From positions 124,001-188,000 of the forward strand of contig JAKPDK010000182.1 of the NCBI GenBank assembly GCA_029552745.1: 64,000 nt of DNA. Direction: 5' to 3'. Positions 3,965 to 5,458 of this stretch are shown in pieces. This DNA comes from Candidatus Hydrogenedentota bacterium. Its GTDB lineage: Bacteria; Hydrogenedentota; Hydrogenedentia; Hydrogenedentales; SLHB01. A program made the translations under genes and the position numbers. The number at the start of each line of letters is the position of its first letter. Position 1 is the first letter of the stretch. Under the pieces are notes generated by a model. It made no database searches and was not told the DNA's origin. It saw only the letters and a program-made list of their open reading frames with translations.

Positions 3965-4339
3965 CTAACTAAGGTCGGTTTCGTCCGGAGTTTTAGGCTG
4001 GGAGAAACCTAAAGAACGTAAAAAACCGTCAATATTGATCTGGTCGGGGTCAACGCCTTGTTCCGGGTGGAAACGTAAAGGATTGCGGATGTAAATTCTC
4101 TGACAGGAGGGACAAAGGTCGAGTTCGAAGCTCTTGTAAACGCTTTCCTCGATTTCTTGTGGGTCTTTGTTTCGTAAACGCTCTATTAGTTCAAGAATTT
4201 CCTCCCGATGATCCCGTACGAGGTCCATGAGACTGACTTCCAGTTCATCATACGCTGCGCGGACCTCGATTTTCACCGTGTAGCGTAGATCTCCCTTGTG
4301 CATTTCTTTTCCGCAACCATCGCACCGGAAAGTCATCAT
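3965..4339 (-). CDS. Zinc-ribbon protein of unknown function
   Basis: About 124 residues from ATG 4339, chosen because GGAG lies nine bases upstream; an in-frame TTG at 4354 is the only longer alternative. Two CxxC pairs, CDGC near the N-terminus and CPSC in the last third, are placed to bind one zinc ion. Between them is a helical acidic segment (DLVRDHREEILELIERL). No enzymatic motif is visible. Terminator-type hairpin 4499-4528 separates it from the small-peptide operon on the same strand, so it is probably transcribed separately. Confidence 0.75.
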   Translation of the reverse strand: MMTFRCDGCGKEMHKGDLRYTVKIEVRAAYDELEVSLMDLVRDHREEILELIERLRNKDPQEIEESVYKSFELDLCPSCQRIYIRNPLRFHPEQGVDPDQINIDGFLRSLGFSQPKTPDETDLS

Positions 4340-4498
4340 CCTGGCTGTCTCCAAAATAGGAACGCATTAGCCAATTGGACTAGTATACCATGACTTCACG
4401 GGCATTTTCTGCTGTTATTTTCTGCTCACGAACATTCCCTATAACGGGACAATCATTACAACAGGACGACGTGTGTAAGCGATTGGCGCGTTGTAAAG

Positions 4499-4544: not shown

Positions 4545-4706
4545 TTAGGATGCGCCGTTTTGTCCGCCTTTCCCCTTGTCGGCGGTAAGGTTCAAGATGA
4601 ATCCGAACACTTGGTCGAGCAGACCGGAGATATCTCCAGCGGTCAAACCCAAATCGTCTCCGTTGTCTTCGGCCTTTCTTAAGGTAATTCTTTTGACATG
4701 CTTCAT
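4545..4706 (-). CDS. Small peptide P1 of tandem four-gene family (53 aa)
   Basis: I recognise no named family. It begins MKHVKRITLRKA, the 12-residue block shared by all four tandem genes (consensus M-[KS]-H-[ILV]-x-[KR]-[VIL]-T). An acidic linker (EDNGDDLG), a hydrophobic amphipathic helix-like stretch (about residues 25-41, containing GLLDQVFGFILNL) and a Gly/Lys-rich tail (KGKGGQNGAS) follow. The helix and KGKG tail are also seen in P4, with about nine identities over 22 aligned positions. The start has AAAGGAG eight bases upstream. It is the last gene of the operon, followed by a terminator. The role is unknown; a precursor-peptide (leader plus variable core) or secreted signalling peptide are possibilities. 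Confidence 0.82.
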   Translation of the reverse strand: MKHVKRITLRKAEDNGDDLGLTAGDISGLLDQVFGFILNLTADKGKGGQNGAS

Positions 4707-4794
4707 ACTTTCTTCTCCTTTCTTTTCTCTTGTTGCAACGTTAGGACACCTTCTTGAAAATGCACCTTCTTAAAAACCTCGTCAAAGATGTCGA

Positions 4795-4902
4795 CTATTT
4801 TTTCAAAGGTAACATATCCGTAAGCTCATAACCGATATTCACAATTTCATCTTCAGATGGAATCTGTGCCTTTTTTACGGTAACTTTTTTCAAATGTTTC
4901 AT
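4795..4902 (-). CDS. Small peptide P2 of tandem family (35 aa, possibly frameshifted)
   Basis: It begins MKHLKKVTVKKA, the family block, preceded by AAAAGGAG ten bases upstream. In frame 0 it stops after 35 residues at TTG AAA AAA TAG. In the -1 frame, the sequence continues directly after the six A's as IVDIFDEVFKKVHFQEG and 14 more residues, ending in a TGA that overlaps the ATG of P1. The -1 extension resembles the amphipathic helix of P1 (ISGLLDQVFGFIL). So the intact gene may be 66 residues, with the break caused by slippage on the A-run, a real one-base deletion, or an assembly error. The 35-residue form is what the given sequence encodes. Confidence 0.72.
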   Translation of the reverse strand: MKHLKKVTVKKAQIPSEDEIVNIGYELTDMLPLKK

Positions 4903-5429: not shown

Positions 5430-5458
5430 ATTATACACTTCTTGGCGAAAAAGTGTTA
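5430..5458 (-). promoter_or_regulatory. Promoter and possible operator of the small-peptide operon
   Basis: On the minus strand a perfect TATAAT (5435-5430) is placed for a start near 5423, about 34 bases before the GTG of P4. No good -35 is found at 17 bases (TAACAC). Instead an inverted repeat, ACACTT/AAGTGT (5435-5440 and 5451-5456), spans the spacer. A poor -35 with a palindrome over the spacer is common at activator- or repressor-controlled promoters; the regulator is unknown. Confidence 0.55.

Follow-up and report, generated by a model that had tools for sequence, protein, structure and literature searches.

An interrupted copy in an array of short peptide genes from a Candidatus Hydrogenedentota bacterium and the apparently undescribed peptide family to which it belongs

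We analysed a stretch of 64,000 nucleotides of Candidatus Hydrogenedentota DNA, referred to below as the window. Near its beginning, four short open reading frames (ORFs), which we call P4, P3, P2, and P1, follow one another head to tail on the minus strand. P4, P3, and P1 are intact, and P2 alone looks broken. The features of this array are listed here in window coordinates:

5430-5435, minus strand: TATAAT, a candidate -10 element upstream of P4 (consensus scan; 2 found vs 1.7 expected in shuffles)
5389-5219, minus strand: P4, array member 1, 56 aa, GTG start
5135-4992, minus strand: P3, array member 2, 47 aa
4902-4795, minus strand: P2 frame-0 ORF, 35 aa, last codons TTG AAA AAA TAG
4825-4798, minus strand: 28-nt interval, any net -1 change within which would connect frame 0 of P2 to the extension
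4803-4798, minus strand: run of six A (A6), immediately 5' of the TAG at 4797-4795
4798-4703, minus strand: -1 register extension of P2, 31 residues, then TGA
4776-4747, minus strand: near-tandem repeat with a 16-nt period, copies at 4776-4763 and 4760-4747
4706-4545, minus strand: P1, array member 4, 53 aa
4501-4530, minus strand: hairpin resembling an intrinsic terminator 3' of P1 (inverted repeat I1, 13 pairs; regional count not above shuffles)

Together, the TATAAT and the hairpin would make the array a single transcription unit, both types of match being no commoner than in shuffled sequence. Neighboring genes include those for a nucleoside hydrolase, a DUF2400 protein, a peroxiredoxin, and a 129-residue protein without a match. 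This last protein (window 3965-4354, minus strand) has a CxxC...CxxC arrangement and no Pfam match, and the 5' end of its gene (4301-4328) shows short DNA matches in several genomes of the taxonomic family. For the array itself, we found no convincing DNA homologs in 39 other genomes of the order, where the best non-self matches spanned 21-39 nt, and none in phages.

At the protein level, the four ORFs belong to a family of short peptides that share the N-terminal motif M-K-H-[IVL]-x-x-[IV]-[TS], relaxed to M-[KSR]-H-[IVL]-x-x-[IVL]-[TS] among the members in the same genome. The residues K-A usually come next, and in most members the C-terminal stretch is hydrophobic or amphipathic. P2 fits this family: it starts with MKHLKKVT, has AGGAG upstream, and scores 20.5 bits against a profile of 79 other members. 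Within its own genome, P4 matched profile A1 at an E-value of 1.1e-19, and P2 matched the same profile at 3.6e-12, with P4 and P2, like P3, being themselves rows of that profile. Searching the same genome with P1 and an eight-row profile recovered more members on two further contigs (C109 and C23), and a DNA pattern for the N-terminus, combined with reading of the loci, added three single members and two neighbors of one. P1-like proteins were found in two genomes of the taxonomic family (loci L050/L078 and L071/L079).

In frame 0, P2 translates as MKHLKKVTVKKAQIPSEDEIVNIGYELTDMLPLKK, a peptide of 35 residues (4902-4795, minus strand), and its 3' end, TTGAAAAAATAG at 4806-4795, contains the A6 run and the TAG. 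The -1 register continues as IVDIFDEVFKKVHFQEG plus 14 residues and stops at a TGA (4705-4703) that overlaps the P1 ATG (4706-4704). Thus, three claims of a preliminary description of this DNA are borne out from the sequence: frame 0 stops at TTG AAA AAA TAG, the -1 register has no stop before a TGA overlapping the P1 start (ATGA), and the joined product would have 66 residues (35 + 31). The A-run also exists as described, at 4803-4798 rather than at the ~4800-4797 first given. According to the codon table, the -1 register is shut by a TGA at 4828-4826 and opens directly after it, so a net -1 change could lie anywhere in the following 28 nt. The A6 run is therefore one candidate for the site of that change rather than a proven one.

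An open -1 register alone is weak evidence that the extension once coded for protein. Scored by the codon usage of its own genome, however, the register reached 7.59 bits over 19 codons, a value equalled or exceeded by only 1 of 718 open off-frame windows compared to 57 of 772 in-frame windows. Open intergenic windows attained this level in 26 of 5039 cases, and open shuffles in 14 of 5053. The 11 codons that stop where the first copy of the 16-nt-period repeat stops scored 5.69, equalled in 11 of 9211 off-frame windows, with all of these codon tests applying to one short stretch that was chosen post hoc. Moreover, an 18-residue stretch of the extension is amphipathic to a degree seen in 251 of 20000 shuffles. 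A segment like the hydrophobic or amphipathic C-terminus of the family is present in the -1 extension of P2, where the family profile lends it no support, and is doubtful in frame 0. Because of this gene-like codon usage and amphipathicity, we consider that the extension was probably formerly coding.

Similarity to other members did not add to this picture. The extension had been thought to resemble the helix of P1, a likeness that was not significant by alignment: its score of 24 was matched by 625 of 3000 shuffles, and the frame-0 tail of P2 reached the same score of 24 against the P1-like C-termini. Alignments to those C-termini that were equal or better came from 195 of 1996 windows of real proteins and 72 of 1266 off-frame windows. 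Adding the extension to P2 raised the family-profile score by only 0.2 bit. One unbroken amphipathic helix spanning the junction was also considered and is ruled out, as the faces of the two parts lie 167 degrees apart.

These results bear on the strongest rival explanation, in which P2 is naturally short and stops at its TAG, and the extension is a spacer whose register is open by coincidence. The 88-nt gap that frame 0 leaves before P1 resembles the other array gaps of 83 and 89 nt, and gaps vary widely in the family. P2 also ends in KK, as the helix ends of many members do, and the homology of the extension to the family is not significant. A length of 35 residues is within the range of the family, given that two members of 28 residues exist. 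The codon usage and amphipathicity of the -1 register argue in the other direction, as does the length of P2 relative to most of the family. Among the 80 members gathered initially, P2 (35 aa) was shorter than all the others (38-73 aa), a count made after removing a 32-residue motif ORF (MSVHMGM...) that is antisense to another member, and it was the third shortest of 121 distinct motif ORFs. On balance, a naturally short P2 seems possible but unlikely. The two 28-residue ORFs occur at one locus (L040, G006:C9), carry the motif, are rich in Pro and Ala, and have ribosome-binding-like sequences.

The motif-ORF counts took in only ORFs with a ribosome-binding-like sequence, and one listing of them covered the plus strand only (45 ORFs, compared to 4 on the minus strand). 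Loci L143-L178 stand outside the listing of 121 ORFs and 65 adjacent pairs.

The extension contains a second irregularity. Two copies of a short sequence, TTTTTAAGAAGGTG (4776-4763) and TTTTCAAGAAGGTG (4760-4747), are identical at 13 of 14 positions and spaced 16 nt apart. A comparable pair at this spacing appeared in none of 1000 dinucleotide shuffles and in 1 of 324 window tiles; Tandem Repeats Finder at score 30 did not report the repeat. Since 16 is not divisible by three, the repeat alters the register. Shortly 3' of the second copy, a TAA (4743-4741, minus strand) lies in the register of the first copy, and the 66-residue product therefore probably carries a tail that is not original. 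The last residues of that product are encoded in the ribosome-binding region of P1, and an ATGA overlap is absent from all 65 adjacent family pairs listed, one of which has a value of -171 and overlaps in a different way. For these two reasons, it is unlikely that the joined 66-residue product was the ancestral protein.

This outcome also affects the view that the A-run was missequenced or misassembled and that the true P2 gene is in one frame throughout. Homopolymers are frequent error sites on some sequencing platforms, and the genome is an assembly of 188 contigs. However, the product of such a corrected gene would be the one that ends in the ribosome-binding region of P1 with the ATGA overlap just described. 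An error in the run would also leave unexplained the duplication in the extension, which does not depend on it. Furthermore, the 43 long open ORFs of the window contain 15 A6 and 5 A7 runs, although this is a weak argument because these ORFs were selected as open. We regard an error in the A-run as rather improbable.

Programmed ribosomal or transcriptional slippage, giving products of 35 and 66 residues, is an explanation that we consider very unlikely. An A6 run before a stop would let the P-site tRNA-Lys re-pair one base back, and the -1 register is both open and coding-like. Tandem slippage, however, follows the heptamer rule X XXY YYZ, and the G AAA AAA T of P2 is not such a heptamer. The RNA downstream of it folds at -10.2 kcal/mol (z +0.46), and 132 of 200 shuffles fold equally well. 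Termination of the extension within the P1 ribosome-binding site likewise argues against a programmed product. Finally, no convincing P2 ortholog, with this arrangement or otherwise, was found in 24 other genomes of the taxonomic family (best non-self E-value 0.73), and no other member with the same break was seen among the 121 distinct motif ORFs.

A further idea is that P2 is a recombinant of array genes, its N-terminal half having been joined out of frame to the C-terminal half of another member. The many similar N-termini in arrays would favor such events. A segment that ends at the A6 run just before the stop, ATGTTACCTTTGAAAAAA (4798-4815, minus strand), matches the start of P2, ATGAAACATTTGAAAAAA (4885-4902), at 15 of 18 positions. 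This match is only modestly rare, being equalled in 13 of 1000 shuffles and 7 of 324 window tiles, and the sequence 3' of the A-run is unlike an N-terminus. Recombination is the least probable of the explanations that we weighed.

Overall, we favor the explanation that P2 is a family copy that lost its reading frame by mutation, to which we assign a probability of about one half. A net -1 change within 4825-4798 would end translation at the TAG, and the duplication with a 16-nt period would be a second frame-altering change. We prefer decay to programmed slippage because the frame is altered twice, a slippery heptamer and a stable structure downstream are both missing, and no ortholog could be found. 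The preliminary description had left slippage, a fresh mutation, and an assembly error side by side; mutation gains from the coding-like extension, the frame-changing duplication, and the lack of another member with the same break among the 121 ORFs, and programmed slippage loses from the missing heptamer and fold. By itself, P2 would be an ordinary broken gene copy. The family and an operon associated with it are more interesting, although their function is inferred.

The family extends well beyond this genome. In its taxonomic family, 22 of 25 genomes matched the profile at an E-value of 5 or less, many of them with tandem arrays. A 45-row profile matched 58 of the 62 phylum genomes that are at least 80% complete at an E-value of 1 or less, with up to 14 matches per genome and one genome (G001) matching at 0.99 only. 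Among 21 outgroup genomes used as a control, none matched at an E-value of 0.1 or less and two matched at 1 or less. The peptides make up an apparently undescribed family found phylum-wide, and the literature searched yielded no description of such a peptide/operon system.

A comparison of loci identified neighbor genes that are shared around the peptides of relatives. In the genome of the window, the corresponding genes form an operon, which contains a fusion of a SPASM domain and a GNAT (acetyltransferase) domain:

L073:9326-16745 (G000:C109): own-genome operon, in the order three peptides, GNAT, GNAT, CAAX protease, ABC ATPase, likely permease, SPASM/GNAT fusion
C109:175828-177738: SPASM/GNAT fusion, 638 residues, SPASM domain TIGR04085 above cut-off

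The first of the two GNATs is a weak match (E-value 0.0067), the protease is CAAX/Rce1-like, and the membrane protein, which has no Pfam match, is likely a permease. This operon and the window array lie on different contigs (C109 and C27) of the same 188-contig assembly, and no operon-type genes were found flanking the array. Elsewhere in the genome, the single peptide on contig C23 (L074:7341-9416) adjoins genes for a PqqD-like protein (TIGR03859, E-value 2.4e-6, under the family cut-off) and an ABC transporter.

The fusion protein combines two recognizable parts. A profile of 31 homologs aligned to CteB over positions 4-433 (E-value 2e-40) and to RimL-type acetyltransferases over positions 522-635. 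In agreement with this, a structure model of the fusion (mean pLDDT 84.6) had 5wgg_A as its best fold match (E-value 5e-19), followed by acetyltransferases. Of the hallmarks of a radical SAM peptide maturase, the fusion has the barrel and SPASM scaffold and has lost the CxxxCxxC of the SAM cluster. This motif occurs in none of the 33 full-length fusion homologs examined and is absent from the own-genome protein as well, and the aligned cysteines of CteB are missing at the corresponding position. Close relatives of the protein are nearly all from Hydrogenedentota, with one labelled Nitrospiraceae and two labelled uncultured bacterium, and all of the Hydrogenedentota records among the relatives listed are metagenome-assembled genomes (MAGs).

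The fusion protein was found in 57 of the 62 phylum genomes, and the five genomes without it all belong to one family, f4. Four f4 genomes (G056, G057, G058, and G059) have neither the fusion nor peptides, and one (G027) is without the fusion yet has three peptide matches. The joint absence in f4 suggests a linkage of fusion and peptides but may reflect a single loss. Physical linkage is seen for one peptide branch, KADAF...KKNE, with the consensus MKHIRxISxxRADAFxDFxNAxWRAWxDF...KKNE. A strong match to this peptide occurred in 49 of the 62 genomes, 18 of which have the fusion on a separate contig. In all 31 genomes with both on one contig, the peptide gene is on the same strand as the fusion gene and 3.85-4.88 kb upstream of it. 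Peptide genes of this branch are thus linked to enzyme and transporter genes, whereas those of the window array are not.

Based on gene content, we suggest how these parts might work together. The peptides probably share a leader, the conserved MKHI..[TS]..KA segment, which one protein would recognize. Modification and export would then act on the C-terminal part, which is variable and mostly amphipathic. Leader recognition is suggested because a short common N-terminus is found on variable peptides and because a CteB-like protein is present. The candidate recognition protein is the fusion, specifically its CteB-like N-terminal part, which we take to be a peptide-binding domain, as in CteB. 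In such a scheme, the GNATs would acylate, the protease would cleave, and the ABC proteins would export. The window array, being unlinked to the operon, would be served in trans. The family would thereby operate like a system for ribosomally synthesized and post-translationally modified peptides (RiPPs), with modification and export as predicted steps.

Extended to the phylum, this leads to a tentative proposal that we hold at somewhat less than even odds. A RiPP-like system may be encoded in nearly every Hydrogenedentota genome, built around a radical-SAM maturase scaffold that lost its iron-sulphur/SAM site and became fused to an acetyltransferase. One recognition protein would serve peptides with the MKHI leader both in cis and in distant arrays, and members would be gained and lost over time, with P2 as a member in decay. 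If this is true, a maturase scaffold without radical chemistry would have been turned into a platform for recognition or acetylation. Both the family of 35-70-residue proteins and the one-per-genome operon seem to occur almost throughout this phylum, most knowledge of which comes from metagenome assemblies.

When compared to known systems, the peptides matched no named RiPP precursor family, as neither Pfam nor NCBIfam contained a family above cut-off for the nine peptides tested. Weak matches to AHSP, SpoIIE_N, and target_X_rSAM fell below cut-off and are regarded as chance. The PqqD-family peptide chaperones offer one point of likeness in the C23 peptide, which stands beside a PqqD-like protein and ABC genes; by contrast, the PqqD-like gene is outside the window array and did not appear in the conserved clusters of the operon. 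The fusion is closest to the SCIFF maturase CteB (PDB 5WGG/5WHY) and related radical SAM/SPASM maturases (TIGR03974, NF040492, and TIGR03906), which it resembles in profile, fold, and SPASM domain. It differs from CteB by lacking CxxxCxxC and carrying a C-terminal GNAT, and the Hydrogenedentota peptides, unlike SCIFF peptides, are not Cys-rich. In prochlorosin-like systems, RiPP precursors have a common leader and many unlinked copies. Compared to these, the common motif of the Hydrogenedentota family is very short, there is no known cleavage site, and modification is deduced from genes. Still, the family resembles prochlorosin-like precursors in its conserved N-terminus and variable C-terminus, in having several copies per genome that are both tandem and scattered, and in the modification-like and export-like genes near one of its peptide branches.
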